Assembly (NCBI RefSeq): GCF_013410115.1
Contig: NZ_JACCCV010000001.1
Span: 1,736,001 to 1,800,000 of the forward strand
Source: Tunturiibacter gelidiferens
GTDB taxonomy: Bacteria; Acidobacteriota; Terriglobia; Terriglobales; Acidobacteriaceae
Length of the DNA: 64,000 nt
Direction: 5' to 3'
Shown here: positions 42,740 through 59,611 of the stretch, one piece after another
Position numbering within the stretch: position 1 is the stretch's first letter
Layout: each line of letters begins with the position of its first letter
Position numbers and translations under genes: made by a program
The notes under the pieces: model-generated
Database searches by the model: none
Told to the model about the DNA's origin: nothing
What the model saw: only the letters and a program-made list of their open reading frames with translations

Positions 42740-42809
42740 GTGGGTTTGGCGTGAGGCGGAAAAGATATAGCCTTTTATCAGTCCTAGGCAGATGCCGGAG
42801 GGATTTGCG

Positions 42810-43019
42810 ATGAAGAGATCATGGGAAACGGAGAGTGGGCATCTCGCCTGCAGTTGGTCTGAGGAAGGGCAGCAAGTCTGGTACGACCTGCGTTGGATGC
42901 AGGAGACTTCAAGTATTCAGGGCGGGTACCTGTTGCCCGTTCCGGATTTTGCGAGTAAGAGTCCATTTGGGGGAGGCTCCTGGTTCCAACCTCGTACCGC
43001 CTACGGCGATTCCGAATAG
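42810..43019 (+). CDS. Short Trp-rich protein, possibly real
   Basis: The 69-residue frame from the ATG at 42810 is rich in Trp and Ser, with WSEEGQQVWYDLRWMQETS and a PFGGGSWFQP ending. I recall similar short acidobacterial hypotheticals, but cannot confirm. It ends 36 bp before the casposon target duplication. Confidence 0.45.
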   Translation: MKRSWETESGHLACSWSEEGQQVWYDLRWMQETSSIQGGYLLPVPDFASKSPFGGGSWFQPRTAYGDSE

Positions 43020-43054
43020 GTCTGGAGATTCAAACTGACCCTTTACTGTAAGGT

Positions 43055-43068
43055 CTCCTCGGTTTGAG
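43055..43068 (+). repeat. Target-site duplication, left copy
   Basis: CTCCTCGGTTTGAG (14 bp) directly precedes the left terminal inverted repeat and is identical to 59437-59450. The preceding and following bases differ at the two sites, so 14 bp is the full match. Confidence 0.92.
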
Positions 43069-43101
43069 GGGATAGGAGATAGGGGTCTGTAAAACTGCCC
43101 T
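43069..43101 (+). repeat. Left terminal inverted repeat (33 bp)
   Basis: Begins GGGATAGGAGATAG and ends AAAACTGCCCT. Against the reverse complement of 59404-59436 it matches 29 of 33 positions, with differences only at positions 15, 18, 20 and 21. Confidence 0.93.
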
Positions 43102-43214
43102 TTCGCCGCCCTGGGTGACGATTTGCCGCGAACAAATGAGAGGCCGAAGTGCGACTAGCTATCAGAATGCCCGCTGTCACCATCCCCGATGGCTGAGCGC
43201 CTATCAAATTCAAA

Positions 43215-43487
43215 ATGCTTTATAGTGTCGTCATGCCTCGCGGACTGAATATGACTTTTAAAGCAGAGCTCTTGCATGAGGGGCAAAACTTTCTTCTCGA
43301 ATTCATTCAATTGTTGGGGTTTTTGTTGATTTTGAAGGTTGGTGAATTTTTGGTCGGACTTCTTTTCCATAGCGCGTTTGTTTTCGGGCGCTTTCCTAAA
43401 GAGTGGCTGTTTGATGCAGGGGACATAGGTTTAGTAGCTTGTTTTAGCCTACGAGCCTGTCTGCGCCTTTTAGGCTTACGAGCTTGA
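43215..43487 (+). CDS. Small hydrophobic protein, element left arm
   Basis: The 90-residue frame has one clear membrane helix (FIQLLGFLLILKVGEFLVGLL) and a second hydrophobic patch. It ends 4 bp before the next gene, which suggests an operon. The start is uncertain (ATG at 43215, 43233 or 43251). No family recognised; weak support. Confidence 0.4.
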   Translation: MLYSVVMPRGLNMTFKAELLHEGQNFLLEFIQLLGFLLILKVGEFLVGLLFHSAFVFGRFPKEWLFDAGDIGLVACFSLRACLRLLGLRA

Positions 43488-43491
43488 ATAT

Positions 43492-44274
43492 ATGAGGCGA
43501 ATCCAGATTATTTTTCAACGACTTGTCGACCGTTTGACGGTTACAGGCTTCTTAGGCGCGACCTACGTATATGCATCATTCGTTTTCGGTTCAATACTCC
43601 TCGCAGTTGCTATATTGGGTGCTTACGCCTTCATCTATCCTGCTGATGGCGTCAGGCGAAACGATGTTCCAGTTGGGGATCGCCCCGCCCCACCGGTTCG
43701 TACCCAACCCGTAGAGCAACCATCAGAACAAAAGAACGCGCCTCACTCTAAGGTAGAAGCTAACATGTCGGAACGGGAGCGCCCACAAGCCACGGATCAA
43801 AAAAATCCATCTACGGCCGAATCGCTCGGCACTTCAAGGACGACACGGCACTTGTGGTGGGAACTCATCGCCGTGGCAATCTGCGGAGCCCTTGGTGGCT
43901 TTGTGAATGTATTTATTGGAGACTCTGGTCTCCACTTGCCTACAATAGATCAGGGCGTCTTTCGCCCAGGATATATCGGGGTCGTGTTTGTGGGATCGAT
44001 GGCTGCTGTGGTCGCTTGGCTAGCGACACAAACTTCTGTACTTGTGGGAGAATTAGCATTGTCGCCAAAAGCTTCGCTGCGACTTTCTGAGTTGAGCACT
44101 GCGATCATCGTGGGCTTTGGTGGTGCACGATGGTTCAAGTCCGAAACTGAGACGACGATTTTTCGCAAGATTGCTGTGGTTGCTGCGAGCAAAGAGGCCA
44201 ATACCGAGGCGGCGGCGGCAATCGCGTCAGGAACTCCCCTTGAGGCTCTCACAGCTGCTAACCGAATGCACTGA
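43492..44274 (+). CDS. Membrane protein, extended paralogue of host gene 33912-34343
   Basis: The 260-residue protein has an N-terminal part of about 120 residues (one membrane helix around 25-48 and a charged, proline/Glu-rich linker) fused to a C-terminal part almost matching the chromosomal protein at 33912. GGFVNVFIGDSGLHLP, RPGYIGVV, RLSELSTAI and GFGGARWFKSE are shared. About 80% of 137 aligned residues are identical by eye. The function is unknown. The pattern suggests that the element picked up, or the host received, a copy. Confidence 0.78.
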   Translation: MRRIQIIFQRLVDRLTVTGFLGATYVYASFVFGSILLAVAILGAYAFIYPADGVRRNDVPVGDRPAPPVRTQPVEQPSEQKNAPHSKVEANMSERERPQATDQKNPSTAESLGTSRTTRHLWWELIAVAICGALGGFVNVFIGDSGLHLPTIDQGVFRPGYIGVVFVGSMAAVVAWLATQTSVLVGELALSPKASLRLSELSTAIIVGFGGARWFKSETETTIFRKIAVVAASKEANTEAAAAIASGTPLEALTAANRMH

Positions 44275-44489
44275 CGCTGGTGGACTCCACCCGTTTTCCA
44301 TGGTGTCGTAAGAGATCAATTTGGATTGACCCTAGCCAGGTCCCAAATCCGCGCACCGCGAGTGACGCGGACCGCTGGCCGAGAGAGAGCCCCAAAACTG
44401 CCCCTCCTCAAGATTCTCCATAGCAACAGGAAGTCTTACCCTACCCTCAAAAATAACCGAGTAACAACGCTTACTTCACCGATGGGGGT

Positions 44490-46045
44490 CTAAATGTTCC
44501 GGACTGCTAGTGTCAGATGAACGATGACATCGTTGATTTTTGCATTTTGCCCGTAAACAATTTTAGGACTTTGTATTGGCGGTGGATTTGCTGAAAACGA
44601 CAGCGGCTGGGAACTGGATGCCACTGCCACCATCCATTCTCCAATCGGACTGACGTTGTGAAGAGAAAGTGTACCCACTAAATCTGGTACACGCTGGCTA
44701 TCTAAGCGTTGTACGCGTCCAACTCTGACAGGAGGCGTTGTACTTTGATCGATCGTCCTCGATGTCCCGTCTAGGTGCACAACGGTTCCCTTTATCGGAG
44801 CCATGAGTAATGATTGAAATATTGCGTTGGAGCTTTCTGATTCAACTGTTACGCTAATACCCCTTAGTCGAACATGGGCTTGGGATGGAAATAGGGATAG
44901 AGGGATCGTAATCTTCCATTTTCCCCCCTGCTTATCTGGGTCTAAACCAGCACTCCAACCTGCGCCTATCAAACTTCGTACGGATACGGGAAAGATGTAA
45001 TTTTGCTCTTGAGCACTGAATCGTAAGAGCCATTCCATTCCTGCGCGTATAGCTAACAGGGAATTATCGAAAATGCAGTCTGCATCGTCCAAAGCGAGTT
45101 TGTACCCATATATATCCCTAACTTGATCGACGGGATGCGAGCTAATGCAGTTTCGAAATCCTGTTTGAACCTTTTTTGCAAAATTGTACGTCGCTCTTCA
45201 AAGTTAATAATTCCACCGTTATCAGTAAAAGCTTGCAACTTCAGCGCATTGATTCTTCTTGCAGCCTCGGTTCTACGTCGGCGGTACGTGATGTCAACAT
45301 TATCGTAGCTTGCCTTGGACACTGCTGCAGTGGCTCGATCCCAAGACCCCCACTGTGTCCCCTCGGTACTGGTAGCTTGTAGGAAGGCTTCAGTACCCGG
45401 TATATCTGTGGGCAAAGCAGGATAGCCCTGTCCGTTCGTCGCAAGACTTGCAAGCTTATCGATGATTCGATTACTCGGATCTGGATCACTGTCGCTTTGA
45501 GCAATAAAATCCCCGAGAGATTGAATGAGTGGAAATGCATAGTATCCGCTCGCAACTTCATCTCCATGAACATCATCTAGATCTGAGAATTCCAAAAGCT
45601 GAAGTTGAGTAGCTAAGCTTCTTTCTCCTAGTCCTTGCCATTCCGCTCTAGTAGCAATACCTCTTTCAAGGAGGGATGCCATCTGCCCTAGAAGCTGTTC
45701 GACTTGGTGATAGCGAAAATCGGTGTTTGGCACCTGAGGCAGCCTGATACCACTATCTATTCTTCCGGTCTTGAGGCCTATCCCTCTGACCGTTTCTTTC
45801 CTCTTTTTCAATACATCACCTTGGTTTAGGTCTTCAAGTGGCGCAAAAGGATCTACCGCTGGCCCAACCGGCACAAGGGAAGCTTCACCCTGCCAGTCGC
45901 GTTGGGTAAAGGGAATAAAATTCGGTCCCGGAGGTGCGTCAGCTGTAATTTTTATTGCCTTGCCAGGCTTCTTCTTGTGAGTCAGTGTCGATTGTCCGGC
46001 TGTCATCAGAGCTATAAATCCTCTTCGCGATATGTTATTTGTCAT
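44490..46045 (-). pseudogene. Tat-signal protein of unknown function, split by an AT-repeat frameshift
   Basis: The frame starting at 46045 (RBS GAGGAAATCC) begins MTNNISRRGFIALMTAG, a Tat-type signal, and runs 330 codons to a stop near 45053. A second frame, 44490-45092, continues without its own start signal. The break falls in an (AT)4 run at 45108-45115: removing one AT joins the frames as LGIYGYKLALDDADCIFDN, giving about 515 residues. Either the gene is inactivated, or it is phase-variable, or the assembly has a slip. The domain is not recognised; the C-terminal half is beta-rich. It lies 12 bp behind the 46058-46798 gene. Confidence 0.7.
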
Positions 46046-46057
46046 GGATTTCCTCGG

Positions 46058-46798
46058 TCATTTCAATCTCGACAGCTGTTGACGATCTTCGTCCCAAAGG
46101 TTTGGGGACGGTGTGGGGAAACCAGTCGGCACAGGCCGCGAATCCTCAGCATCGGTCTCGTGTTCGATACCCATGACGGCGGCTGAACGTGTGAGCACGT
46201 CATCAATTCCCTCTTGAACAGTTACGCCAATCTCGAAACCAGGTTCAAGTAGGGCGTCAGCACCCGCAACACCACCGGGTAGGCCCCCGATCATGGTGCC
46301 CGCTGCGAATCCTATGAGCGCGCCAACTGCGGCACCAAGCGCACCTGCCGCAAGGGTATTGGTATCGGGTAAGTACAAACCTGACAGATCGGTATGACCG
46401 GTGGAAAGGCCTCCAATCGAGACGCCGAGAGAATAGAAATCCAGGGCGTCACGCGCAAACTCCTTATCGAAATCTCCAAAGGCGCTAGCGAACTGAAAGT
46501 CCTGGGGGTTTCCCAAACGAAAATCTAAGCTTCCAGCGGGATTTGCGAAATCGTTTCCGATTTCTGGGAGCACCAGCCCTGTACCGTTTGGATTATCTAT
46601 TCCAGAACTCTGCTGATTGAGCAAATTCGGCGCTTGGTCCGAGCCTGGAACGGCAGATCCTTCGCCTGCAGCCGGAGACGTCGAATCGTTGGGCTGGGGC
46701 GTGGGTTGCGGGGAAGGAATATCGTCATCGTCATCATCGTCATCACCTGCTAGGAAAAAGCTGACCAGCCGTGAGCCCAATCTCCATGAGGCTAGCAT
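46058..46798 (-). CDS. Unknown protein with poly-Asp tract and glycine-zipper helix
   Basis: The 246-residue protein begins with a short hydrophobic start, then eight consecutive Asp encoded by GAT/GAC repeats and a Pro/Ser/Asn-rich spacer. A folded-looking middle and a glycine-zipper hydrophobic hairpin follow (AAGALGAAVGALIGFAAG, MIGGLPGGVAGA). Glycine-zipper segments are typical of membrane-inserting proteins. I recognise no family. It is the first gene of a unit with the Tat-signal gene. Confidence 0.65.
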   Translation of the reverse strand: MLASWRLGSRLVSFFLAGDDDDDDDDIPSPQPTPQPNDSTSPAAGEGSAVPGSDQAPNLLNQQSSGIDNPNGTGLVLPEIGNDFANPAGSLDFRLGNPQDFQFASAFGDFDKEFARDALDFYSLGVSIGGLSTGHTDLSGLYLPDTNTLAAGALGAAVGALIGFAAGTMIGGLPGGVAGADALLEPGFEIGVTVQEGIDDVLTRSAAVMGIEHETDAEDSRPVPTGFPTPSPNLWDEDRQQLSRLK

Positions 46799-46955
46799 CC
46801 GATCCTAATCTCCACGCAATGGGGCTCTGACAATAGACGTAATCTTCCGATTAAACTGGCTGGTCGTCAACGCATTTAACCATAGTTATGCCGGGAAGTG
46901 TTGTGCACGTCGTAAGTAGCTTGGTGTCGCTGAGCACTAGCGGAGGTCTACGGAC

Positions 46956-48533
46956 TTAGGCATCTATACGGACAACCCCTAGCAGGCTTGCTAAGGTACG
47001 CCAATGTCGTGGATGCGGCACTCGGCCATGTCGAATTTCAATCGCGTAGCCATGTGAAACCTTGAGATGACGAGCGAGTGCTCGGCCTGAGAGCGAAGAA
47101 ACGATCGGTTGAATCCTATCTGAGTAGAATTCAGCTGTGAGCCAAGTAGGTTGGTCGGAAGCTGACCACGCTCGTTGACTTGCTCGATTGGCAAGCTGCG
47201 TCTGGGACCTCTTGGACTCGGCTTGTGCCGTGTGGGATACGATACGGCCTTGAGATGCGGCTCTGATTAAGTTCAGAGTCGTCACTTCTAGGGCGCAAGA
47301 TTTACATTTCTCGCTTCCTCTTACGATCTCATTGTCGCAGTTGCCACACACATTTGGGAGTTTCAGTGATGGCTTGGGAATAATTTGAGGCTTCCCGCCT
47401 CTAACCTCACGTTTGCGATTCTGGGTCAACCGTGTTGCGGGACTTGTTCTCCTGGTTTTTGTCGTTGAAGCAATCTGCTGCATTACCCATTCTGCGACTG
47501 GAGCGACGAGGCGTGCCCATGTAGACGTCGTTTCTGCGAGCCGTTCCGTCAAGTCAGCCATCAGACGGCAGTTCCCATTACGTTCGTCGAAGAACCAGCG
47601 CCGCTTGAGGGGTCGGTTTATGATCCGATTGAGCACATACGCATCGACATCCGGGCGGATGGGTTCCATCAGGTCGCAAGCCAAGCTATCTCGATTAGCC
47701 GTATCCATATGCAGGACACCCATTCCGGGATCGAGACCAAGTGCAGCAACAGCAAGACGACACTCGGCCTCCAGCAACGCATAAAGATAATTCAGAATTG
47801 CATTAACAGGATTAGTGGCGAGTCGAGGTGATCCCCCTGACAACGGAGAGACGCGGGACCCAAAGTTGCGCCAATGCTCAGGGACGCGGATCAGCTCCTT
47901 TTCTGGAAAAGTTATAGAGTGCGTTCGCCATGCATTCCAATAAACTTTGGCCGCACGCGCTTCTGTAAATCGGATAGCTTCGATGGAATCGACTTCAGCC
48001 AATTCGGACCGAATTTCGGTGATGCGTCTTGCGGTCTGTTCATCGTGTAATGATTCTCGTGCCACACGCTCTTGCCCCGCGAGCTTACGATCAATCAGCT
48101 CTCGGCTGATCCGGAATGACACACCGGTGTGATGGGCTAGTGCCTGCGCTCGACGTAATCGAATGTCCGACGGTCGTACAGGACCGGTTGTCGCTAGAAC
48201 TCTACCATTCCGCTCCAGCATGACGAACGATGCGTTTTGATCGGCAAGCCAACGCAGGGCAGCGAGTGACACTACTCCATCTGCACCAATCACGACCAGA
48301 CGCTCGAGTCCATTTCCGACTCGTGGGAAGCGACCGATGTAACGATCAGAGCCCACTCCATCTTCGATAACTAGGTGACCTCGATCTACGCGAACGCTAG
48401 TCCCATAACCATAGAGGACTATGACACCCTTGCGGGGTCGCATCGAAACTGGGTTGATATCGCTCGGTTGTGGACTAAATTCAACAGATTTGCGCAAGGC
48501 TGACGCTTGCGCTAGGGTCTGAGTAGCTGCCAT
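46956..48533 (-). CDS. Solo Cas1-family integrase (casposase)
   Basis: The 525-residue protein has a complete Cas1 fold. It has an N-terminal beta domain (about 35-115: GVIVLYGYGTSVRVDRGHLV, FVMLERNGRVL) and a helical domain carrying the active-site residues: Glu191 in FTEARAAKVYW, His275 in VLHMDTANRDSLACDLME, and Asp287/Glu290. Cas1 normally has about 330 residues. Here the extra C-terminal part has a four-Cys zinc finger (C396, C399, C410, C413) and an HTH-like tail (GRALARHLKVSHGYAIEIRH). No cas2 or CRISPR array is near. It should insert the element by cleavage-ligation at a target site. The start may instead be the internal Met31. Confidence 0.93.
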   Translation of the reverse strand: MAATQTLAQASALRKSVEFSPQPSDINPVSMRPRKGVIVLYGYGTSVRVDRGHLVIEDGVGSDRYIGRFPRVGNGLERLVVIGADGVVSLAALRWLADQNASFVMLERNGRVLATTGPVRPSDIRLRRAQALAHHTGVSFRISRELIDRKLAGQERVARESLHDEQTARRITEIRSELAEVDSIEAIRFTEARAAKVYWNAWRTHSITFPEKELIRVPEHWRNFGSRVSPLSGGSPRLATNPVNAILNYLYALLEAECRLAVAALGLDPGMGVLHMDTANRDSLACDLMEPIRPDVDAYVLNRIINRPLKRRWFFDERNGNCRLMADLTERLAETTSTWARLVAPVAEWVMQQIASTTKTRRTSPATRLTQNRKREVRGGKPQIIPKPSLKLPNVCGNCDNEIVRGSEKCKSCALEVTTLNLIRAASQGRIVSHTAQAESKRSQTQLANRASQRAWSASDQPTWLTAEFYSDRIQPIVSSLSGRALARHLKVSHGYAIEIRHGRVPHPRHWRTLASLLGVVRIDA

Positions 48534-48613
48534 TGGAGTTCGTGCTCCTGTGTCGGTCAGGGCTTGGCGCCTGCTCTAACAGGTAACAAGCCCGCTCTTC
48601 TTCTATCAAAAGT

Positions 48614-49180
48614 TTAATCGTTTTCCGAGGTTCCCTTCTTAAGAATTCTCTGAATAGTTGACACACTCGTACCTCGGTTGCGTGCCACCTTTTCCTTAGC
48701 TTTCGGCAGAGAATAACCATCTTTGAAATATCGCGCTACTTCTTCGCGGACTTTAGGCTCTTCCTCCAGTGGAATTTTTCGAGGGGGGCCACCCGGAGGG
48801 GGAGGCAATTGTTTTGCAAAGGGAACCAGAATTTGGCGAACCGAAGGCAGAAATAAATCCACTTCCCGGAGGACTTTTTCGAGATTTCTTGGGTCCGGAT
48901 CTGGGAAGCTGGCCAGGAGATCCTCAGCCCTTTGCCAGGTATCCATGGCATCGAGAAAATTAGGAATCGATTCGGAAGTCAGAGTTTGTTCCTGACCAAC
49001 CACCGGCAGCATTCTTTTAATAATCACCAGCAATAGATCGAAAAGCGTTCTGTTGCCATACTCACGGATAAAGCGAATTCCTTCTTCATAGCTGCAAGGC
49101 TCGCCGTCCATAGCGCTTGATACGGCCCTGAACAATCGTGAGGTAGCCTCCAGAATCTTCCTTTGGTTCTCTGCCGTCAA
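48614..49180 (-). CDS. Small HTH protein upstream of Cas1
   Basis: The product is about 188 residues, helical at the N-terminus (RKILEATSRLFRAVSSAMDG). A C-terminal HTH-like segment reads VREEVARYFKDGYSLPKAKE and GTSVSTIQRILKK. A TTG at 49180 with GGAG 6 bp upstream is the likely start; an earlier TTG at 49219 is possible. It is codirectional with cas1, separated by 80 bp, and may regulate the element. Family not recognised. Confidence 0.65.
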   Translation of the reverse strand: MTAENQRKILEATSRLFRAVSSAMDGEPCSYEEGIRFIREYGNRTLFDLLLVIIKRMLPVVGQEQTLTSESIPNFLDAMDTWQRAEDLLASFPDPDPRNLEKVLREVDLFLPSVRQILVPFAKQLPPPPGGPPRKIPLEEEPKVREEVARYFKDGYSLPKAKEKVARNRGTSVSTIQRILKKGTSEND

Positions 49181-49399
49181 TGAATTCTCCAGTGATCCAG
49201 TGCCATGTAAGGGTACCAAACCGCTCTGGGCCGCTAGTCCTTTGCGTCACAACCGGTGGCACCCCTTATGACTCAAGGAAGCCAGATGTGTTCGACCCCT
49301 TCTGCCGTACAGAAAGCACTCGTTATCCAATTGTTGTGACTCAGTAAACCATTCATACTCGCGATCGTTGACCAGTGTTGAGATCGAGAGGACAGTGAA
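49181..49399. promoter_or_regulatory. Divergent promoter region of the casposon core
   Basis: This 219-bp spacer separates the leftward HTH-cas1 unit from the rightward HTH-HNH-polB unit, so both promoters should be here. A GAGAGGAC ribosome site precedes the rightward TTG start. I see no certain -35/-10 pair or operator. Confidence 0.4.
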
Positions 49400-50008
49400 T
49401 TGGAAACGAAGAATCATAAGCGCAAGAAGCCTGAAAAAGCTGACGCACGAGAAGTATCAAAAAAGCAGAAAGCGAAGCTTGCGATGCGCAAAAAGCGATC
49501 CAAAGCGAAGCTTGCTGCTCCTCGCACAGAAGCCGAATACTCGGCGAAGCCCGAAAGATTCAAGGATACCTGGGACCGAGTTCTCGGCGTGGTCTCGAAG
49601 ATGCGCCGCGAAAAGGTCTCACTCACCCAGGCTTCGCGCAATGCAGGCATCAGCCCACGCACCGTAACCAGGTGGGGTAAAGCAGCGCTGCAAAAACAAA
49701 TGAATGGCAAATACGTGGCTAAGAAGTCCGACAATTTGCTCCGACTAGTCATGATTCCGACACCAGACGGACCGCGCGACATTGCAGTGAAGGGTTCCAA
49801 ACAAGTGACGCTGCTTGCCGAATATTGGAACTCTCTCCACCGCTATTTGCAAACTGGCGACTCATCCTCGCTCAAGAAGTTTCAGGGCAAGCACATCAGA
49901 GATGCAAATGGCGTTGATATACCGTTGTCGGTTGATCTCAGCGCTTTGAACCGTTTGGGATCTGCTGGTGTTTTGTCGTTTGAATCCCTGTACGCGAGGA
50001 CTACATGA
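49400..50008 (+). CDS. HTH protein, first gene of the PolB operon
   Basis: The 202-residue protein has a Lys-rich leader (RKKPEKADAREVSKKQKAK) followed by a central HTH, SLTQASRNAGISPRTVTRWG, at about 74-93. The remainder is of unknown fold. A TTG start is used with GAGAGGAC upstream. The stop overlaps the next start by four bases (ATGA). It may regulate or help initiate replication of the element. Confidence 0.72.
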   Translation: METKNHKRKKPEKADAREVSKKQKAKLAMRKKRSKAKLAAPRTEAEYSAKPERFKDTWDRVLGVVSKMRREKVSLTQASRNAGISPRTVTRWGKAALQKQMNGKYVAKKSDNLLRLVMIPTPDGPRDIAVKGSKQVTLLAEYWNSLHRYLQTGDSSSLKKFQGKHIRDANGVDIPLSVDLSALNRLGSAGVLSFESLYARTT

Positions 50009-50499
50009 AGAATATGCCACCACCACCGTCAGATCCCATAAAGGCCTACCAACGCAAGTCGTCTGCTGCACGCCGCGTTGGAAACAACAACCGCTGCACG
50101 TGTGGCGAGACACGAATTGAAGCACTTGCAGGAAACAAGGGTATCTGCGCCGCGTGCCAACGAAAGAAGATGGGACGTCCCATCACGGACAAGCATCACG
50201 TTGGGGGAAGAGCGAACAGCCCCGTCACTCTAGAGATGTGGATCAACGATCACTGGGCTGTGTTAAGCGTCGCTCAGCATGAATGGCCAAAAGAAACACT
50301 CGAAAACCCTATGGGCTGTCCGCTGCTGTCTGCGGCAGGATGCATTCGAGGATTCATCGACACGATCTGTCACCTCATTAAGAGGTTATTGAGTTGGATC
50401 GCCGAGATGCTGGAGTTATTGAGCACACTTTTGATCGAGCGACTAGGGCCAGACTGGTGGTCCGGTACGCCTATAGCTCAGTTTGCAAGGAAAGGGTAA
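50005..50499 (+). CDS. HNH-like zinc-binding protein
   Basis: The 164-residue protein has four Cys (C31, C33, C48, C51), then HH at 64-65 in TDKHHVGGRANSP and a later N81-x-H83. This layout fits an HNH/beta-beta-alpha nuclease, with the zinc site stabilising it. The C-terminal half is two amphipathic helices (DTICHLIKRLLSWIAEMLEL). Casposons commonly carry an HNH gene. It overlaps the HTH gene by four bases and lies six bases before polB. Nuclease activity is inferred. Confidence 0.68.
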   Translation: MKNMPPPPSDPIKAYQRKSSAARRVGNNNRCTCGETRIEALAGNKGICAACQRKKMGRPITDKHHVGGRANSPVTLEMWINDHWAVLSVAQHEWPKETLENPMGCPLLSAAGCIRGFIDTICHLIKRLLSWIAEMLELLSTLLIERLGPDWWSGTPIAQFARKG

Positions 50500-50505
50500 G
50501 AACAA

Positions 50506-53500
50506 ATGTCACGAATTACATCGCTTCCAATAGCAGTTCGCGTATATCCAGAGATAGCAAGCCCAGCAGCGGAGAATCCACGATCAGGCTCTCAACGTCC
50601 CAAGAAGTGGAGACGGCCTGATGCCATGCTGGTGTTCGATACAGAAACGCGGATTGATGCAACTCAGCGGCTCACGTTCGGGAGCTATCGGTTTTTGATC
50701 AAAGGAGAGTGCCATGAAGAAGGATTATTCTTCGCCAACGATCTGCCAGAGCAAGAGCGTAAGGTTCTTGAGCGTTACGCTGCGGAGCATCCAGCAGAAG
50801 CTAACAACACAAAATTAAAGCTCCTCACATTGCATCAATTTCTTTCGAAGTTTTATTCGGCAGTGTATAAGGGCCGCTGCCTACTGGTTGGCTTTAATCT
50901 CCCATTTGACTTGTCACGAATCTCTCGCGATGCGACCTCAGCGCGCGGAAGGTTCGCTGGTGGATTCTCCTTCAGTCTTTGGCCATATATTGACAAGTTA
51001 GGCAATCAACTCGAAAACCGGTTTAGGCCGAGAGTGGGTATAAAACACATTGATGGAAAACGAGCCCTTAAGGGATTTACGGGTCGTAACGGATGTGACC
51101 CATCAGACCTCATTCCTGATGGATCGCCAACCGGTGAGCCAGAGGAAGGATATAAATTCCGTGGGCATTTTCTTGATTTGCGAACGTTGGCCTTCGCGCT
51201 AACGGATCGGGGATATTCTCTGGCCGATGCGTGCAAAGCATTCGAAGTGGAACACGGAAAACAACATGCCGAACACAATGGCGGAATTACAAGCGAATAC
51301 ATTGATTACAACCGCCGAGATGTTTTGGCCACGGCGGAATTAGCGGAAAAGCTGCTTGCAGAATTTGATAAACATCCGATAGATCTGCAGCCAACAAAAG
51401 CATATTCACCAGCTTCGATTGGTAAAGCTCACCTGCAAGCAATGGGAATTAGGCCAATTCTTGAGCGACAGCCCGATTTTCCGAAGAAATATCTTGGATA
51501 CGCTCAATCGGCATTTTTCGGTGGACGCACAAGCGCGCATATCAGAAAAGTTCCAATTCCGGTGGTTTACACGGATTTTCTTTCGATGTATCCAACCGTG
51601 AACATTAACATGGGTCTTTGGGAATTCGTAACTGCTCGGGAAATCACAATTGATGAACACTGCGAAAAAGAAATAACAGATTTCCTTAATTGCGTTTCGG
51701 CTGATCATTTATTTAATCCGGATACCTGGAAAAATCTCGCGGCGTTTGTCCAAATAATCCCCGACGGCGATATTCTGCCTTCCAGGAGCAAATACGCCAC
51801 TGCAAGCAATGATTGGCAGGTCGGCGCAAATCACATTTACAGCGAAGTAGAGAACTCGACTGCGCTCTGGTTTGCATTACCTGATGTCGTTGCGTCCATG
51901 ATTTTAACTGGTCGCGTTCCGAAGATCGTCGATGCCTTCCGGTTGAAGGCAAAAGGCAAATCTAAGGGACTAAAACCAATTAGTCTCCGTAAGGCGATCA
52001 AGGTTGACACTCGCAACCAAGATCTCTTCAAGGTCGTCATTGAGGAGCGCAAAAGATTAGATTTTGGTACAGACATGCCAAAGTCTGAAAAGAGTCGGCT
52101 GGACAAAGCACTCAAAGTGCTCGCGAATTCCACAAGCTACGGCATTTACGCGGAGATGAACCGCCAGGAATCGGATGAGAAGGTTGATGTTCTTTGTCAT
52201 GGCATCGATCCTGATCCGTTTGCCTGCAAGGTCAAACATCCAGAGATTCCGGGCAAATATTGTTTCCCACCCCTTGCTGCTCTGATTACAAGCGGTGCAC
52301 GACTCATGCTGTCGCTGCTGGAGCATTGCGTGTCCGAGAAAGGAGAAACGTATGCGATGGAAGATACCGACTCGATGGCAATCGTGGCAACAGAGCGCGG
52401 CGGACTCATTCCGTGTCCAGGCGGATCGCATCTAAAAGATGGCCAGCCCGCGATCAAAGCCCTCTCGTGGAAAGAGGTTGATAAAATTGCTAAGCGGTTT
52501 GAGGCTCTCAATCCCTATGATCGTCATGCTATACCTGGATCAGTTCTGAAAATCGAAGGAGATAATTTCGACCCGAAAACCAGAAAGCAGCGGCAACTTT
52601 ACTGCTATGCAATCTCCGCCAAGCGGTATGCTCTGTTCCTCAAAGACAAACATGGCAATCCTGAACTGCTCAGAAAGGGTGTCAACAACGATGAGGATCG
52701 ATGGTCTGAGCATGGCCTTGGGCATCTACTAAATCCAACCGATCCCGAAAGTGACGACCGGAAGTGGGTCGGACAGGTATGGCTCAATATGGTGCGCAAC
52801 GCACTCGGTTTACCGGCGATGGCTGTCGGATTTGAAGATTTGCCTGCTGTTGGCCGACTTACTATAAGCAGCCCCGCTGTCATCCGGCCATTGGCGAAAC
52901 TGAACGAGGGTATACCCTATTCGGAACAGGTCAAACCTTTCAATTTCCTATTATCCTTCCACGTAAAGCCGTTTGGTCATCCCAAAGGAGCGGACCCCGA
53001 ACAGTTCCACCTCATCGCGTCGTACAACAATAAGCCTTCTCAGTGGCTCAAACTGGAACCGATTGATCAGTACACGGGGAACAGTTATAGGATTACGACC
53101 TCCGGGCACACAGGAAGCGCGCGAACGGCTCTGGTCAAAACTTACGAGGACGTTCTTCGTGAATATGAATTTCACCCTGAATCGAAATGCTCAGATGCAA
53201 CGGGAAATCCCTGTGACAAGCAGACGGTCGGATTGCTTCAACGTCGACACGTTCGCGTCGATCAAATCAAATACATTGGCAAAGAATCTAATCATCTGGA
53301 AGATGTCGATGCGGGACTCGTTCATTCCCATGGAAGCGTCTATACGGAATATGTCGACCCGAGCCGTGATGAATGGCAAACGAAGATTTTGCCCGCGTTG
53401 AAACAAATGCCGCTGCCATTCTTGGTCAGTGAGAGCGGACTTTCTCGACGCGCATTGATGGACATCAGAGCTGGTCGATCCCGGCCTCATCTTAACAATC

Positions 53501-53559
53501 AAAGATGCCTTACCGACATAGCTCGTAATGCGACAAGCAGAACTGAAAATGGGTTATAA
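50506..53559 (+). CDS. Family-B DNA polymerase of the casposon
   Basis: The 1,017-residue polymerase has 3'-5' exonuclease motifs VFDTET (D45, E47), GFNLPFD (N131, D135) and YNRRD (Y268, D272). Polymerase motifs are A DFLSMYP (D357), B LANSTSYG (539-546) and C EDTDS (D620, D622). All catalytic residues are present, so synthesis and proofreading should both work. A C-terminal HTH-like block (GLSRRALMDIRAGRSRPH) resembles the Cas1 tail. The ATG follows AGGAAAGGG. It is the third gene of the rightward operon and should copy the element. Whether it is protein-, RNA- or self-primed cannot be seen here. Confidence 0.93.
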   Translation: MSRITSLPIAVRVYPEIASPAAENPRSGSQRPKKWRRPDAMLVFDTETRIDATQRLTFGSYRFLIKGECHEEGLFFANDLPEQERKVLERYAAEHPAEANNTKLKLLTLHQFLSKFYSAVYKGRCLLVGFNLPFDLSRISRDATSARGRFAGGFSFSLWPYIDKLGNQLENRFRPRVGIKHIDGKRALKGFTGRNGCDPSDLIPDGSPTGEPEEGYKFRGHFLDLRTLAFALTDRGYSLADACKAFEVEHGKQHAEHNGGITSEYIDYNRRDVLATAELAEKLLAEFDKHPIDLQPTKAYSPASIGKAHLQAMGIRPILERQPDFPKKYLGYAQSAFFGGRTSAHIRKVPIPVVYTDFLSMYPTVNINMGLWEFVTAREITIDEHCEKEITDFLNCVSADHLFNPDTWKNLAAFVQIIPDGDILPSRSKYATASNDWQVGANHIYSEVENSTALWFALPDVVASMILTGRVPKIVDAFRLKAKGKSKGLKPISLRKAIKVDTRNQDLFKVVIEERKRLDFGTDMPKSEKSRLDKALKVLANSTSYGIYAEMNRQESDEKVDVLCHGIDPDPFACKVKHPEIPGKYCFPPLAALITSGARLMLSLLEHCVSEKGETYAMEDTDSMAIVATERGGLIPCPGGSHLKDGQPAIKALSWKEVDKIAKRFEALNPYDRHAIPGSVLKIEGDNFDPKTRKQRQLYCYAISAKRYALFLKDKHGNPELLRKGVNNDEDRWSEHGLGHLLNPTDPESDDRKWVGQVWLNMVRNALGLPAMAVGFEDLPAVGRLTISSPAVIRPLAKLNEGIPYSEQVKPFNFLLSFHVKPFGHPKGADPEQFHLIASYNNKPSQWLKLEPIDQYTGNSYRITTSGHTGSARTALVKTYEDVLREYEFHPESKCSDATGNPCDKQTVGLLQRRHVRVDQIKYIGKESNHLEDVDAGLVHSHGSVYTEYVDPSRDEWQTKILPALKQMPLPFLVSESGLSRRALMDIRAGRSRPHLNNQRCLTDIARNATSRTENGL

Positions 53560-53681
53560 AGTCAACTTCCTGGTCGGTTGTTGCTCCAAGTCCGGATTGG
53601 TGGCCACAGCGTAGATTCTCTAGTCTGTCAGCACCTTACGGTGGTGCGATTCTCGGCTACCGAACGAAATTCTTCAGTGCA

Positions 53682-55991
53682 ATGGTGTTGCTTGCCCCGA
53701 TAATGATGTTAGGTGCATTTGAGGAGCTCCATTTGGGCGTCAGCTTTACGGTGGATACGCATGTTTTTCGAGAGCTAGGAGAACTGCTCGTCGCACGCGA
53801 CTCAACTGCTCTTATTGAGTTGATAAAAAATTCGTACGATGCTGATGCCACGGAAGTGATCGTGTATGGTCACTCTCTGAGCAATAAAAAAGTCTCTTTC
53901 ATTCAGATTTCGGACAACGGAACGGGGATGACCGAATCAGCGTTTTCTCAGGGTTTTCTGAGGATCGCATCGCGCTCTAAGGAACAAGGTGACCGCCGAT
54001 CGCTCCGCTTCAAACGGCGCTTTACAGGGGCTAAAGGAATAGGAAGACTGGCAGCGCACAAACTGGCTGAAGTGCTCAAAGTGGAGTCCATTCCGGGTTC
54101 TGAAATTGGTTCCACAATTGGCGTAAAAGCCAAGATCGATTGGGCTTTGGTGGAACAGTACCTAACGTTGGAAGATCTGGCGTCCGAGGACAAGAGCCTT
54201 GCGGTGATTGTGGAGCCGAAGCCAAAAAGAGAAAAATCGAAAGAAGGTACAGAGATCCGGCTTGAGCGTCTTCGTCGCTCATGGAGCGATAGAGAGTTGC
54301 TTCGCTTCGTGTCAGAGGTACAAAGCTTTTCCCCTTCGGAATTCTTAATAAATCCGACCAAGGAGAGCATCAAGCCCTACAGTTTTCTTCTCCAATCGCC
54401 GAAAATCTCCGACGTAAAAAGGACGGCTCCTTTTGTCTCAAAATTACAAGGAGACTTTGCAACGGGAGAAAATTATTGGCCTACCTTCGCTGCAAGCGCC
54501 GACTGGTTCATCGAGATTGATGCCGCGAGCTTCCCGAACTCGATAGATTATCATCTAATTCCCACGGTTCAATTCCGCAAAGCCTATCCGACAGCGAAAA
54601 TTCAGAAGCATTCAATTAGACGAGATAAGGGCAAAAGCGCTCCTAGTTTTCAAGCGCGGATCATAGTTAAGGAGGGACAGCAGGGCGGCGGTCCTCTCAA
54701 GGAATGGGCTGCAGCAAACTCCGGTATTCGCGTATTCATGGAGGGCTTTAGAGTCCTACCTTACGGCGAAAGATCGAACGACTGGCTTCAACTTGACCGC
54801 AGCTATGCGGAACGTGGACGGACATCGCCTTACCTCACGGAATTCGGCTTCGCGACTTCAGAGGAGCCTGACGATAGGGACGCGCTGCTTTCAATTCTCC
54901 CGAATCGCAGTTATTACGGCTGTATCTTTCTTACTCAAGAGGGAGCGCCCGAATTGGAAATGCTTGTCAATAGAGAGGGTTTTATTCCGAACGACAGTTT
55001 CGAGTCTCTCGTGAGTCTGATTCGGTTGGGGATCGACTTGAGCGTCCGCGCCCGTGCCGCCGCAAAAGCGCCTAAATCTGACCGGGCGATGCTCATCCCG
55101 CCGCCACTTCCAGAACTACCAGCAGAGATCATCGAACCCGAGACTCTCGAAGTTGCTGTGAAGTCCTTGTCCGGTGTCCGAGAGCTGATCGCGAAAGGAC
55201 AGGTGGAACTTGCGAGGACCGCATTAGAAGCGAGTGAAACTCGTTTGCAGTCGATTTCAAAAAACATCGACACAGAGTCTGCCATGTTGCGAGTTCTAGC
55301 TTCGGTCGGATCTCAAATGTCCGCATTCGTGCATGAGATCAACGCGGCACTGGGGATGGCGCAGGGAGTCGAAAAATCGATCGAACGTCTCCTCGAGCAG
55401 GAGTTTTCCGCCGTCACCAGACGGGAACTCAACCGTGCTCTTAAATCGATTGCAGATTTACGCCGCCAACTGGAGCGACAGGCCTCCTATCTAATCGATG
55501 TAAACAGTCCAGACGCGCGCAGGCGTCGGGGAAGGGTCTCAATTTCTTCACGTTTCGATTCGGCAGAACGACTCCTCCAGCGAGTCGCAGAACAGAAGGG
55601 TGTAGAGATCGTTAGTAGCATTCCGGAAGGCCTTAAATCCCCTCCGATGTTTCCCGCAGAACTAACCAGTGTTTTTACCAACCTTCTGACGAATGCTATC
55701 AAAGCAGCTAATCGCGGCGGTAAGGTAAGTGCTTCCGGTCGCGCTATTGAGAGCGGGGGAGCATCGGTTCGTATCGAGAACACTGGCATCCGAGTTGATC
55801 TAAAAGATTCCGAAAGATGGTTTGCCCCATTTGAATCGACGACTACGAGCGTAGACAGCGTTCTAGGGCAGGGTATGGGACTGGGGTTGACGATTACGCG
55901 GAACATTCTCGAGCAGTATGATTGTTCCATCTCCTTCGTAAAGCCATCGCCACCCTATACCACTGCCGTTGAGATCCAATTTGCGAAGTGA
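53682..55991 (+). CDS. Double GHKL ATPase / histidine-kinase-like protein
   Basis: The 769-residue protein has two Bergerat-fold regions. The N-terminal one is HSP90/MutL-like: LIELIKNSYDADA (N box), QISDNGTGM (G1) and GAKGIGRLAAHKLAE (G2), at about 40-130. The C-terminal one is histidine-kinase-like: a candidate H-box His in QMSAFVHEINAAL (near 550), then TSVFTNLLTNAIKAA, RIENTGI and GQGMGLGLTITRNI. The middle (about 200-540) is unassigned. There is no membrane helix, so it is cytoplasmic. It is the first gene of a coupled four-gene unit whose next gene has a receiver domain. The start is uncertain; a second in-frame ATG lies at 53706. Confidence 0.82.
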   Translation: MVLLAPIMMLGAFEELHLGVSFTVDTHVFRELGELLVARDSTALIELIKNSYDADATEVIVYGHSLSNKKVSFIQISDNGTGMTESAFSQGFLRIASRSKEQGDRRSLRFKRRFTGAKGIGRLAAHKLAEVLKVESIPGSEIGSTIGVKAKIDWALVEQYLTLEDLASEDKSLAVIVEPKPKREKSKEGTEIRLERLRRSWSDRELLRFVSEVQSFSPSEFLINPTKESIKPYSFLLQSPKISDVKRTAPFVSKLQGDFATGENYWPTFAASADWFIEIDAASFPNSIDYHLIPTVQFRKAYPTAKIQKHSIRRDKGKSAPSFQARIIVKEGQQGGGPLKEWAAANSGIRVFMEGFRVLPYGERSNDWLQLDRSYAERGRTSPYLTEFGFATSEEPDDRDALLSILPNRSYYGCIFLTQEGAPELEMLVNREGFIPNDSFESLVSLIRLGIDLSVRARAAAKAPKSDRAMLIPPPLPELPAEIIEPETLEVAVKSLSGVRELIAKGQVELARTALEASETRLQSISKNIDTESAMLRVLASVGSQMSAFVHEINAALGMAQGVEKSIERLLEQEFSAVTRRELNRALKSIADLRRQLERQASYLIDVNSPDARRRRGRVSISSRFDSAERLLQRVAEQKGVEIVSSIPEGLKSPPMFPAELTSVFTNLLTNAIKAANRGGKVSASGRAIESGGASVRIENTGIRVDLKDSERWFAPFESTTTSVDSVLGQGMGLGLTITRNILEQYDCSISFVKPSPPYTTAVEIQFAK

Positions 55992-55995
55992 TTCT

Positions 55996-57138
55996 ATGCC
56001 AAAAAATCCACTACCGACGATTCTCTTTGTAGATGACGTCATTGAACAAATTGACGGAATAGCCCGTCTTTGTGAATTGCAGGCTCACATACTGAAGCGC
56101 TCCTTCGACGATGTCGACGAGGCGGATCTCGATTCTGCAGACTTGATACTTGTGGATTTCAATCTAGAAGATTGGGAGAAGCGGGAACATGTCACTCAAG
56201 TGACATTAAAGCCAGGGGACGGTCTAGCAGTAGCTGAAACTTTACGTTCGTATTACAGGTCGAAAAAATCGGATAGACCCGTCGCGATCGCGGTCCTTAG
56301 CGCAGACCTTCAGAGTCTTACCGAACCATTCCCTCCGACGCGCCGCGAGCATATGGTAGCCAGCGTGGCTAAAATTGAATGGGCCTTTCAGAAGACCAGC
56401 TCATTTTCGGATACCTCACGGCAGTTGCTAAGTCTTGCAAATGGGGTGCGGCAGCTGCCTGCTATGTGGCCTCACGACTCAACTGCGCGGAAGGACCAGA
56501 CCCTTCATGAATTGTTGGCTCTACCAGAATCAACAATCTGGGCTTCCGCAGCGGTTTTAGACCTAGCACGATGCCACCCTCCCGTTCAGGAACTCTCGAC
56601 ATGGAGTCACGGTCTAGCGTTTATACGATGGATGTTGCAGCGTATTCTGCCTTATCCGACCTTTCTCCTTGACGGGGCCCAAGTGGCAATCCGATTAGGT
56701 ATAGAACCGGACAGCTTCCAGGCGGGGCAGAGGGATAATCCGGACTTTGGTGATTGGTTAGCTCCTACGGTCTTCAAAGGGCTACTCCACGATTTCCATG
56801 AGACAAGATTTTGGAAGGCCGGAGTAGATTTGCTGATTTGGGAGCTTACTCGAGAAAATCCTTTCGATAGATCAGCGCTGGCTGCGTCTTTAGTGTCCAA
56901 GCTACCTAATGCGCGCTTCATCAATGCGAAAAATCCAGTCGCAAGCGTCGGGAAGGACTATGAATTTGTAGGCGTGGCTGATGCTTCTGAGTGTCTTCGA
57001 CTTCGTCCGGATGACTGGCCTCCCTACGCAGACTCCGCCTGGGCCAAGAAGACACTCGTCAGAGAGAGTGAAGCCTTGCAGATAGCGCTGGAAGACGACT
57101 CGGACCGTGAAGAGCTGGGGGCGGAAGTTAGTGAGTGA
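55996..57138 (+). CDS. Receiver-domain protein with unknown C-terminal domain
   Basis: The 380-residue protein opens with a CheY-like receiver: ILFVDDVIEQ (acidic pair near 13-14), phospho-acceptor Asp54 in LILVDFNLED, and AVLSADLQSL as the switch strand. The remaining 250 residues are helical with no DNA-binding motif that I recognise. It starts 4 bp after the GHKL gene, so it is the probable phosphorylation partner. The 12-bp overlap region at the end contains the next start. Confidence 0.75.
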   Translation: MPKNPLPTILFVDDVIEQIDGIARLCELQAHILKRSFDDVDEADLDSADLILVDFNLEDWEKREHVTQVTLKPGDGLAVAETLRSYYRSKKSDRPVAIAVLSADLQSLTEPFPPTRREHMVASVAKIEWAFQKTSSFSDTSRQLLSLANGVRQLPAMWPHDSTARKDQTLHELLALPESTIWASAAVLDLARCHPPVQELSTWSHGLAFIRWMLQRILPYPTFLLDGAQVAIRLGIEPDSFQAGQRDNPDFGDWLAPTVFKGLLHDFHETRFWKAGVDLLIWELTRENPFDRSALAASLVSKLPNARFINAKNPVASVGKDYEFVGVADASECLRLRPDDWPPYADSAWAKKTLVRESEALQIALEDDSDREELGAEVSE

Positions 57139-57880
57139 AATTGCTTTCAAGTTCTCCGACATGATTCGAGAAATCCAAACGTTCGAGGCCGTTGCGAGGG
57201 GGTTCCTCGATGAATCTGCGCCCGGTGTGTTAGCGAATTACTCGCGGCAGCTGCAATTCATAGAACGCGAGAAGCCGCAGGGCGTCTCCCACTGGATCAT
57301 TTCAAAAGATCGGCCGCTGAAGACTGCCGTCAGCAGGGGACATTACGACCGTCACGGCCAATTGGATGTATTCGCGACGATTTCCACAAAATGGGAGATC
57401 AGATGTCCGGCGGAAAAATCAAAGAAGAAACTACCACAAAAGATTTTCCATCTTACAGGATTGGCATCAACTACAGTAAAGGTCTTCTCGAAACGCGACG
57501 ACGATACTGAGGAACTGTTGACTGCTTGGCAATCTGATATAGGTGATGCAGATTCTCCCGGTTGCCATTTTCATATCCAAGTGCAACACGAAGATGAACA
57601 ACCCCCTTATCCGAAAACATTTCCAGTACCCCGTTTCCCAAGTCTTCTAACATCGCCGTTAGCAGCCGCCGAATTCGTCATCTCAGAGCTCTTTCAATCT
57701 GAGTGGATCAAATCTGCGCGCCCAACCTCGTCAGATCATATTAAATGGTCAGCAATTCAACAAAATCGCATGAGGAATCTTCTTGAATGGCAAAGAGACA
57801 TCGTGGCGGATTCCATATGGTCCCCTTGGACCTTTCTAAAGAGGGCAAAGCCTCATTCTGACATCTTTGGGCTAAATTGA
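57131..57880 (+). CDS. Unknown protein in the GHKL-methyltransferase operon
   Basis: The 249-residue protein is mixed alpha/beta, with HWIISKDRPLKTAVSRGHYD and CHFHIQVQHEDE blocks. I recognise no domain. A GTG at 57131 overlaps the previous stop and follows GGGGGCGGA; a GTG at 57107 is an alternative. Its fixed place between a receiver protein and a DNA methyltransferase suggests a shared system, possibly as an effector or specificity factor, but this is inference. Confidence 0.7.
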   Translation: MSEIAFKFSDMIREIQTFEAVARGFLDESAPGVLANYSRQLQFIEREKPQGVSHWIISKDRPLKTAVSRGHYDRHGQLDVFATISTKWEIRCPAEKSKKKLPQKIFHLTGLASTTVKVFSKRDDDTEELLTAWQSDIGDADSPGCHFHIQVQHEDEQPPYPKTFPVPRFPSLLTSPLAAAEFVISELFQSEWIKSARPTSSDHIKWSAIQQNRMRNLLEWQRDIVADSIWSPWTFLKRAKPHSDIFGLN

Positions 57881-59334
57881 AGTTTATGAACTCATGTCGC
57901 GTCTATACACCTGCGCCATTAGCCTCGGCCATGACACGCGCTCTTGGACATCAAAGGGGAGCCTTGTGGCTGGAGCCCAGCTTTGGACGCGGTGCGTTCG
58001 TCGATGAAATTTCAGCACTTGGAGTTGAAAGAGAGACAGTATTCGGTATCGATCTCGATCGACGAAAGTCCAAGAGCGATCAAAAGTGTATTCCAGTTCG
58101 AGGAGTCGATTTCTTGTCTTGGTCTTCAGAGGAGCCAGCTCGCTTCGACCGAATCATCGGCAATCCGCCTTTTATCGCAATCGAGAGACTGCGGGGAGCG
58201 CTTCGAACCAGAGCTTCAGAGATTGAATGGCGTTCACTGAAACCTCTAGGTTCAAACGGCAATCTTTGGGCCTCTTTTCTGATTGCAAGTCTCAAAGTTC
58301 TCAATGCGGGCGGTCATCTTAGTTTTGTACTGCCGGCTGCGTGGGGATATGCGGACTACGCCGCCGATCTTAGACACAAATTACCGTCCTTGTTCAAAGA
58401 GTTTGTTTGTCATAGAAGCAAGCAACCGCTTTTTGACTCTGTTCTAGACGGGAGCTACGTAATCCAGTGTTTTGGTTTCGGACTTAAAAACCGAATTAAC
58501 AGCTTTCACACTTACGAACGAAAAGAGGATTTGGTCAGAGGTTTGAGGCCACCGGTTCGGCCTTCTGCTCCCGCAATTCGTACTAATATTCAAGCGCCGT
58601 CAAGAGAGGTCCGTAGAGCAGGTGACTTGCTCCAAGTTCGATTGGGAGCGGTAACCGGTGATGCCAAATATTTTCTCCTCTCGGAATCAAGACGTCAGGA
58701 ACTACGGTTACCAGAAAGCTGCCTGATTCCCGTTGTTACGCGAGCTCGGCATTTGACGGCTCCTTCAATACGCACCAGCGTCTGGAGGCAAATTAGAGAT
58801 TCAGGAGATCGCTCCTATCTATTCAATCCTCAGGCGGGAGACCTTTTGAATGAGGCCGTGAAAGCATACCTCCGTCTGCCTCATAAAAGAGGCGGATGTG
58901 ACCGGACATCTGGTTGGGTCAGTAAACGCACGCCTTGGTATTCGGTAGGTCTTCCATCTGATTTCCATGGATTTATGAGCGGTGTAAGTACAGATGGACC
59001 CTGCATCGCCTTGAATGAAATGGACAGACTTGCAGCTACCAACACGCTTTATGTGATTCGTTTCAATAAAAACCTTAAGAGTCGAGATGCAAAAGCCGCA
59101 TGTTCATTTTCTCTACTGACAACCTATAGTCGGGCTCAGCTTGCAGCGCGGACTCGAAATTACGCTGATGGGCTGAGAAAGCTCGAGCCATCGGACATTG
59201 CCGGTATAACGCTTCCGGTGAGAACTGAAGTGCATGGCGCTTTTGACGCCTATCGATCCGCTGCTCAATTATTTATTGACGGTGATACTAAGTTGGCGAT
59301 CGAAATGGCCGATGAATGGTTTGCGAAACACTAG
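57877..59334 (+). CDS. N6-adenine DNA methyltransferase (Class I, TaqI/Eco57I-like)
   Basis: The 485-residue protein has SAM motif LEPSFGRGAFVDEI (about 32-45) and the amino-methyltransferase motif IV NPPF (96-99), followed by a C-terminal target-recognition region with a TY-R rich end. The order motif I before NPPF fits gamma-type N6-adenine enzymes. It has no endonuclease domain. A TTG start overlaps the previous stop (TTGA), but ATG 57886 is an alternative. It would modify host and element DNA, protecting it from a co-encoded activity if the operon is a defence system. Confidence 0.87.
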   Translation: MKFMNSCRVYTPAPLASAMTRALGHQRGALWLEPSFGRGAFVDEISALGVERETVFGIDLDRRKSKSDQKCIPVRGVDFLSWSSEEPARFDRIIGNPPFIAIERLRGALRTRASEIEWRSLKPLGSNGNLWASFLIASLKVLNAGGHLSFVLPAAWGYADYAADLRHKLPSLFKEFVCHRSKQPLFDSVLDGSYVIQCFGFGLKNRINSFHTYERKEDLVRGLRPPVRPSAPAIRTNIQAPSREVRRAGDLLQVRLGAVTGDAKYFLLSESRRQELRLPESCLIPVVTRARHLTAPSIRTSVWRQIRDSGDRSYLFNPQAGDLLNEAVKAYLRLPHKRGGCDRTSGWVSKRTPWYSVGLPSDFHGFMSGVSTDGPCIALNEMDRLAATNTLYVIRFNKNLKSRDAKAACSFSLLTTYSRAQLAARTRNYADGLRKLEPSDIAGITLPVRTEVHGAFDAYRSAAQLFIDGDTKLAIEMADEWFAKH

Positions 59335-59356
59335 AAGAAATGCTGTAAGGCAGGAA

Positions 59357-59376
59357 CGGTCAAATCCGCTTGACCG
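59357..59376. other. Hairpin just inside the right end
   Basis: CGGTCAA at 59357-59363 pairs with TTGACCG at 59370-59376 around loop ATCCGC. It lies 27 bp inside the right inverted repeat and 22 bp after the methyltransferase stop. It may be a transcription stop (no T-run) or a subterminal protein site. Confidence 0.5.
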
Positions 59377-59403
59377 CTAACCGGACAAAGGCAAGACCCT
59401 TAG

Positions 59404-59436
59404 AGGGCAGTTTTAACGCCCTCTATCTCCTATCCC
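59404..59436 (-). repeat. Right terminal inverted repeat (33 bp)
   Basis: Read on the minus strand it begins GGGATAGGAGATAGAGGGCG and ends AAAACTGCCCT, matching the left end at 29 of 33 positions. It directly abuts the 14-bp target duplication. Confidence 0.93.
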
Positions 59437-59450
59437 CTCCTCGGTTTGAG
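59437..59450 (+). repeat. Target-site duplication, right copy
   Basis: CTCCTCGGTTTGAG, identical to 43055-43068. Beyond it the chromosome resumes with TGTGAGG. The tRNA-Ala gene begins 85 bp further on. Confidence 0.92.
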
Positions 59451-59535
59451 TGTGAGGTTGGTTGCTGATACACTCGGAGATGTTGTTTCGGCTGTCTCGG
59501 GCCTGCGAAAGTGGTGCGTGAGGCGAGTTTGGTGG

Positions 59536-59611
59536 GGGGCTGTAGCTCAGTTGGGAGAGCGCCTCGTTCGCAACGAGGAGGTCAGCGGTTCGATCCCGCT
59601 CAGCTCCACCA
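59536..59611 (+). tRNA. tRNA-Ala (CGC)
   Basis: A full cloverleaf: acceptor GGGGCTG with CAGCTCC including the alanine identity pair G3-U70, anticodon stem CCTCG/CGAGG with loop TTCGCAA (anticodon CGC), T arm with GGTTCGATCC, discriminator A and encoded CCA. It lies just outside the casposon right end; the gene itself is not interrupted. Confidence 0.97.

Follow-up and report, generated by a model that had tools for sequence, protein, structure and literature searches.

A complete acidobacterial casposon at the predicted promoter of a tRNA-Ala gene

The casposon and its insertion site

A 64,000-nucleotide stretch of the Tunturiibacter gelidiferens chromosome (the window; NZ_JACCCV010000001.1, positions 1,736,001 to 1,800,000), which belongs to contig 1 in a genome of 5.29 Mb, was found to contain a complete casposon of 16,368 bp at window positions 43069-59436. 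The casposon sits at the predicted -35 box in front of a tRNA-Ala gene and was probably placed there by a Cas1-type integrase that recognises the promoter. The ends, core genes and target site are given below, with core proteins compared to 24 other elements by tblastn (E <= 1e-5).

43055-43068, no strand: left target duplication, 14 bp, CTCCTCGGTTTGAG, the same letters as 59437-59450
43069-43101, plus strand: left terminal inverted repeat, 33 bp, 29/33 positions matching the right end
46956-48533, minus strand: Cas1 (predicted casposase), 525 amino acids, with a C-terminal zinc-binding segment and helix-turn-helix (HTH)-like helices; Pfam Cas_Cas1, E 1e-44; matched in 24/24 other elements
48614-49219, minus strand: small protein, HTH-like by eye only; matched in 0/24
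49400-50008, plus strand: HTH-like protein, with a weak HTH_29 match below cut-off; matched in 16/24
50005-50499, plus strand: presumed HNH-like protein, label unconfirmed; matched in 6/24
50506-53559, plus strand: family-B DNA polymerase (PolB), 1017 amino acids, Pfam DNA_pol_B_2; matched in 19/24
59404-59436, minus strand: right terminal inverted repeat, 33 bp, 29/33 positions matching the left end
59437-59450, no strand: right target duplication, 14 bp, identical to the left copy
59446-59451, plus strand: predicted tRNA-Ala -35 box TTGAGT, of which the first five bases fall within the duplication (from sequence and the spacing test)
59469-59474, plus strand: predicted -10 box TACACT, 17 bp past the -35 hexamer (from sequence and the spacing test)
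59536-59611, plus strand: tRNA-Ala (CGC) gene, starting 85 bp past the duplication (ARAGORN)

The original prediction, a complete casposon in an acidobacterial chromosome with both ends intact, was borne out by the ends, the duplication, the core genes and an empty site in the same species. Its description of imperfect 33-bp inverted repeats beside a perfect 14-bp duplication also proved correct, and over a longer stretch the ends agreed at 30/36 positions. An end finder that used no motif, and instead required inverted 24-nt ends flanked by a 13-mer repeated exactly in direct orientation, recovered a duplication with matching inverted ends in none of 235 shuffled regions. The first 14 nt of the casposon end were present with zero mismatches at only two places in the genome, both of them the ends of this casposon. 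Two further near-copies of this 14-mer were detected, one a lone casposon end on contig 2 and the other L005. The predicted -35 box within the duplication had been missed by the original prediction.

The solo Cas1 and PolB that had been read from the sequence were upheld by Pfam matches and by motifs; the HNH-like label was not, with no match for that protein in Pfam, NCBIfam or PHROGs. An alignment of 19 Cas1 rows revealed E257, H275, D287, E290, C396, C399, C410 and C413 to be invariant, catalytic-type residues included. In the structural model of Cas1, helices at residues 467-517 were predicted with a local distance difference test score (pLDDT) of about 83-86. The closest structure by Z was the casposase 6opm of M. 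mazei, in a comparison that spans residues 34-363 only and leaves the C-terminal fold outside it. PolB carries the exonuclease and polymerase motifs FDTE, DFLSMYP and EDTD, with a marginal DNA_pol_B_2 score (26.8 bits against a cut-off of 25.8). The small protein at 48614-49219 had no Pfam or NCBIfam match over cut-off. A resemblance between the C-termini of Cas1 and PolB noted by eye was dropped, as two-sequence BLASTP gave no alignment.

Same-species empty site and signs of recent movement

In another genome of the same species (G371), the two flanks were contiguous across a single CTCCTCGGTTTGAG, and 1518 nt aligned without a gap at 97.6%; an empty site of exactly this form had been asked for beforehand. 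The tRNA-Ala neighbourhood was also found without the element in several congeners, and its -35 and -10 boxes are kept in casposon-free relatives. The original prediction had inferred a recent insertion from the likeness of the ends. That likeness is no dating evidence, but the same-species empty site does date the insertion.

The second copy that had been asked for was found in decayed form on contig 2 of the same genome. This element of 9,861 bp has a truncated cas1, which is the sole other Cas1 of the genome, a polB remnant, 14-bp copies of CGTCAGCCGTTGAC and a different end type, and it adjoins the lone end of another casposon. At the equivalent site, G371 carries a different casposon of 16,053 bp with full-length Cas1 and PolB beside the same lone end, and a third genome (G727) has two -35/end borders 10.8 kb apart. 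Thus, both sites differ between these two genomes of the same species, and this sequence comparison speaks for recent casposon movement.

Placement at predicted promoters

The end finder was applied to 47 fetched regions, a subset of the places with Cas1, and returned an end pair in 27; the 20 without a pair included many on short contigs. Twenty-five pairs were used. The remaining two (G493 and G616), which were left out, also end in TTGAC but abut another element. In 20 of the 25 duplications, read in one orientation, TTGAC filled positions 10-14 of the 14 bp; in none did it occur at another position. Counted by distinct sequence, 17 of 22 duplications had the pentamer there, as compared with 214 of 140,195 places (0.15%) in the flanking DNA. 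TTG at positions 10-12 was counted by eye in 23/25. The five duplications without TTGAC comprised the window (TTGAG), Granulicella sp. L46 (TTGTC), G717 (TTGCG) and two from G002 that lack TTG. The G002 elements (contigs 13 and 4, L148-L151) share the end type GGGGATAGCTATAG; a similar end type in G530 obeys the rule.

Beyond the duplication, likeness to TATAAT was scored at 11 host loci, with one element per locus. On the promoter side it peaked at a spacing of 17 with a mean of 3.05/6, against a mean of 1.32 (standard deviation 0.35) over 0-59 bp; on the other side the value at 17 was 1.65, with no peak. In 20,000 random placements, the observed mean was never reached. A -10 box of at least 4/6 was present at 17 or 18 bp in 9/11 loci. 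The genes downstream of these sites were tRNA-Ala (one element) and tRNA-Gln (six), both identified by ARAGORN, and the protein genes for valine-tRNA ligase (valS, six), threonine-tRNA ligase (thrS, one), ribosomal protein L21 (rplU, two), a radical-SAM protein (two) and a Ser/Thr kinase (one). For the protein targets, one representative each was identified by NCBIfam models and the remaining members by eye from the gene start; G678, G717 and G146 have another target gene or no clear one. The distance from duplication to tRNA was 83-85 bp in 7/7 tRNA-linked elements. Genomes G024 and G031, which have no element at tRNA-Gln, retain TTGACC-17-TACACT there, and therefore the box is host DNA. One end type was found at two different genes (G462 and G678), so that the choice of site does not reflect the inheritance of a single insertion. 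The orientation of cas1 with respect to the promoter was split 12 to 11.

The prediction was then fixed, and nine more regions were taken as a held-out test; eight came from another family of the class, and the ninth was a further region of G493. Two of these had both ends, and TTGAC was present in 2/2. One, GCGCCCGGTTTGAC, is followed by TATAGT 17 bp on; the other, GGCGGACAGTTGAC, has a weak TAGCCT as its -10 box.

Several observations weigh against promoter recognition by a casposase. The two G002 duplications do not fit the motif, the L46 element is located within a gene that by eye resembles a TonB-type receptor, and a clear -10 box followed only 1/2 of the held-out duplications. The representatives and scores behind the 9/11 were picked by hand, and the count becomes 8/11 with the other radical-SAM element. 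Orthologous sites are common (six at tRNA-Gln, six at valS), so that the sample is 11 host loci and not 23 independent ones, and the promoters are sequence predictions. As for the enzyme, the CRISPR (clustered regularly interspaced short palindromic repeats) Cas1 4n06 of A. fulgidus slightly outscores the casposase 6opm by sequence and by Foldseek E-value, and a model of the HTH alone was poor (pLDDT 58).

A rather unlikely alternative is that the casposase reads nothing beyond the short word TTGAC (GTCAA on the opposite strand) and that insertions at promoters survive because they do little harm. The pentamer by itself would account for the 20 duplications that carry it, and this explanation also accommodates the L46 insertion within a gene at TTGTC. 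However, in the surrounding DNA a good -10 box at 17-18 bp accompanied just 21 of 600 TTGAC sites and a single one of 41 GTTTGAC sites, far below its frequency at the targets, a difference that selection could still yield. It is very improbable that the insertion machinery is guided not by promoter DNA but by RNA polymerase or sigma factor bound to it. Placement at a fixed point in the predicted promoters of highly expressed genes would suit such guidance; yet the interior of the TonB-type gene is also targeted, and archaeal casposases pick their site alone in vitro, according to two reports (PMC6614799, PMC6977970). That the locus is no mobile element at all, and instead a Cas1 island or CRISPR remnant with chance repeats, is hardly credible: the window Cas1 does match CRISPR Cas1 models too, but this idea is refuted by the same-species empty site, and no CRISPR-like array was found in the window, no shuffled region yielded comparable ends, and relatives share the core genes and ends.

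In the favoured mechanism, recognition of the promoter by the casposase, the enzyme would bind a two-part target composed of the -35 pentamer at the duplication border and the core promoter outside the duplication, the latter being the counterpart of the leader side read by archaeal casposases. The casposase would join the two element ends 14 bp apart, and fill-in repair would duplicate the -35 box and thereby leave the host gene with an intact promoter beside the element. The site is probably read by the C-terminal HTH of Cas1, and PolB is predicted to copy the element. That a bacterial casposase clade uses the sigma-70 core promoter as its leader, inserts upstream of it and remakes the -35 box, with one promoter serving both the gene and the next casposon, is about equally plausible and doubtful. 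With belief similarly divided, this one-promoter scheme could be taken as the transposon version of CRISPR leader-repeat logic. A separate candidate, an inward hybrid promoter formed by the -35 copy and a -10 box in the inverted repeat, was rejected: the best likeness was 1-4/6 at 16-19 bp, with no common hexamer or spacing.

The element is of a known kind; its promoter-linked choice of target is apparently new, and how the site is read we infer. Yeast Ty1 and Ty3 also insert upstream of tRNA genes and spare needed genes, with unrelated enzymes and by use of RNA polymerase III factors. Bacterial (family 3) casposons have been reported in Streptomyces, Henriciella, Nitrosomonas and an Acetothermum scaffold (PMC4046053), and those of families 3 and 4 occupy intergenic regions (PMC6614799). 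Like the family 3 elements AceAut-C1 and NitAL212-C1, the window casposon combines a bacterial host, a solo Cas1 with PolB, inverted ends and a duplication (PMC4046053), and like family 3 it has an intergenic site (PMC6614799). It shares with AceAut-C1 a Cas1 with a C-terminal zinc-binding segment and HTH, which not all family 3 members have (PMC4046053). In contrast, the available text on family 3 mentions no promoter -35 rule and names no acidobacteria (PMC4046053). For the HNH endonuclease gene considered as a family 3 trait, the candidate here is the protein at 50005-50499, which matched nothing in Pfam, NCBIfam or PHROGs.

The window casposon also resembles the family 2 elements of A. boonei and M. 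mazei in its 14-15-bp duplication, in the C-terminal HTH of its Cas1, and in having a leader outside the duplication together with a short motif at one of its borders (PMC6614799, PMC6977970). Archaeal casposases require that leader beside the duplication (PMC6614799, PMC6977970), and the M. mazei casposase is inactive without its HTH (PMC6977970). However, the archaeal casposons in the literature extend over the 3' ends of genes, either tRNA genes or others, and over those of tRNA genes in the case of family 2 (PMC6614799, PMC6977970), whereas the window element lies upstream of its tRNA gene, at a predicted promoter, and has a bacterial host (Acidobacteriota), not an archaeal one. Tn7 likewise spares a needed host gene, but with an unrelated enzyme and downstream of glmS (PMC4046053).

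CRISPR adaptation is proposed to have originated from casposons (PMC4046053), and the site choice of the Cas1 enzyme is central to that story. Here, a recently moved clade in the cultured genera Tunturiibacter and Granulicella appears to pick housekeeping promoters with single-base precision and to leave them unbroken. This choice is testable with a short promoter as target and points to a route by which cargo might be set upstream of a selected promoter; the 25 natural insertions are available for asking what the HTH reads.

Relatives, cargo and neighbouring DNA

The acidobacterial casposon is not a lone one, as relatives are frequent in the class; no paper that describes them was found. The literature search returned no account of acidobacterial casposons or of casposon targeting to a -35 box, with most subscription papers outside the search. 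Relatives of the window Cas1 were detected in 46/398 sampled genomes of the family (Acidobacteriaceae; E <= 1e-30), in 24/399 genomes of the class (Terriglobia; profile search, E <= 1e-40) and in 8/396 genomes of the phylum (E < 1e-60); named hosts are Tunturiibacter, which belongs to this family and class, and Granulicella, both Acidobacteriota. Any Cas1 match at 1e-3, CRISPR types included, was present in 114/396 phylum genomes. A search of plasmids gave 21 Cas1 matches, all below 60% identity and none covering 80% of the query; 20/21 are annotated as cas1 and one record is unannotated. PolB gave no plasmid match, and viral contigs gave one weak match only. Rfam scans of 13 loci around targets yielded a single match, Acido-Lenti-1, about 5 kb from the G558 target.

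At a tRNA-Gln gene of G028 (L214), a casposon-type end of the GGGTAGGGGGATAG type borders CTCCACACGTTGAC, and the fetched DNA has one end only. No Cas1 relative was found in the G028 genome; this end is possibly that of a non-autonomous or decayed element.

The part of the element outside the core genes (46956-53559) amounts to 59.7% of its length, as had been expected of a cargo exceeding half. The cargo consists of two blocks, in which none of the eight open reading frames (ORFs) was matched in the 24 other elements.

43492-44274, plus strand: left cargo ORF
44490-45092, minus strand: left cargo ORF
45053-46045, minus strand: left cargo ORF
46058-46798, minus strand: left cargo ORF
53682-59334, plus strand: right cargo, comprising a HATPase protein, a 389-amino-acid protein, a 257-amino-acid protein and an Eco57I-type methyltransferase

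Because tblastn matches to the other elements were limited to core proteins, the casposon core is, by this comparison, common to the relatives and the cargo is not. The left cargo ORFs had no Pfam match over cut-off. The ORFs at 44490-45092 and 45053-46045 overlap on the same strand in different frames, which may be a natural overlap or else a single gene that has been broken, and a run of eight aspartates is present near the start of the ORF at 46058-46798. The right cargo resembles a restriction- or defence-type cluster: its HATPase protein has HATPase domains at both ends and an N-terminus like that of the BbrUII/HgiDII restriction enzymes, and its methyltransferase is of the Eco57I/type II kind. 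Elsewhere, the Granulicella sp. L46 casposon (L008 12153-14512) has two ORFs that read by eye as tyrosine recombinases, and the G152 element (L071 4969-9637) has two that, again by eye, look like a restriction-modification pair of type III.

A further 325 bp beside the left duplication (42730-43054) was considered as part of the casposon and rejected, being present at the G371 empty site though aligned congeners are without it. Since this segment is included in the gapless alignment of that site, it is, on the alignment, older than the casposon. It constitutes another insertion at the same tRNA-Ala promoter, where G024 has a different extra piece.

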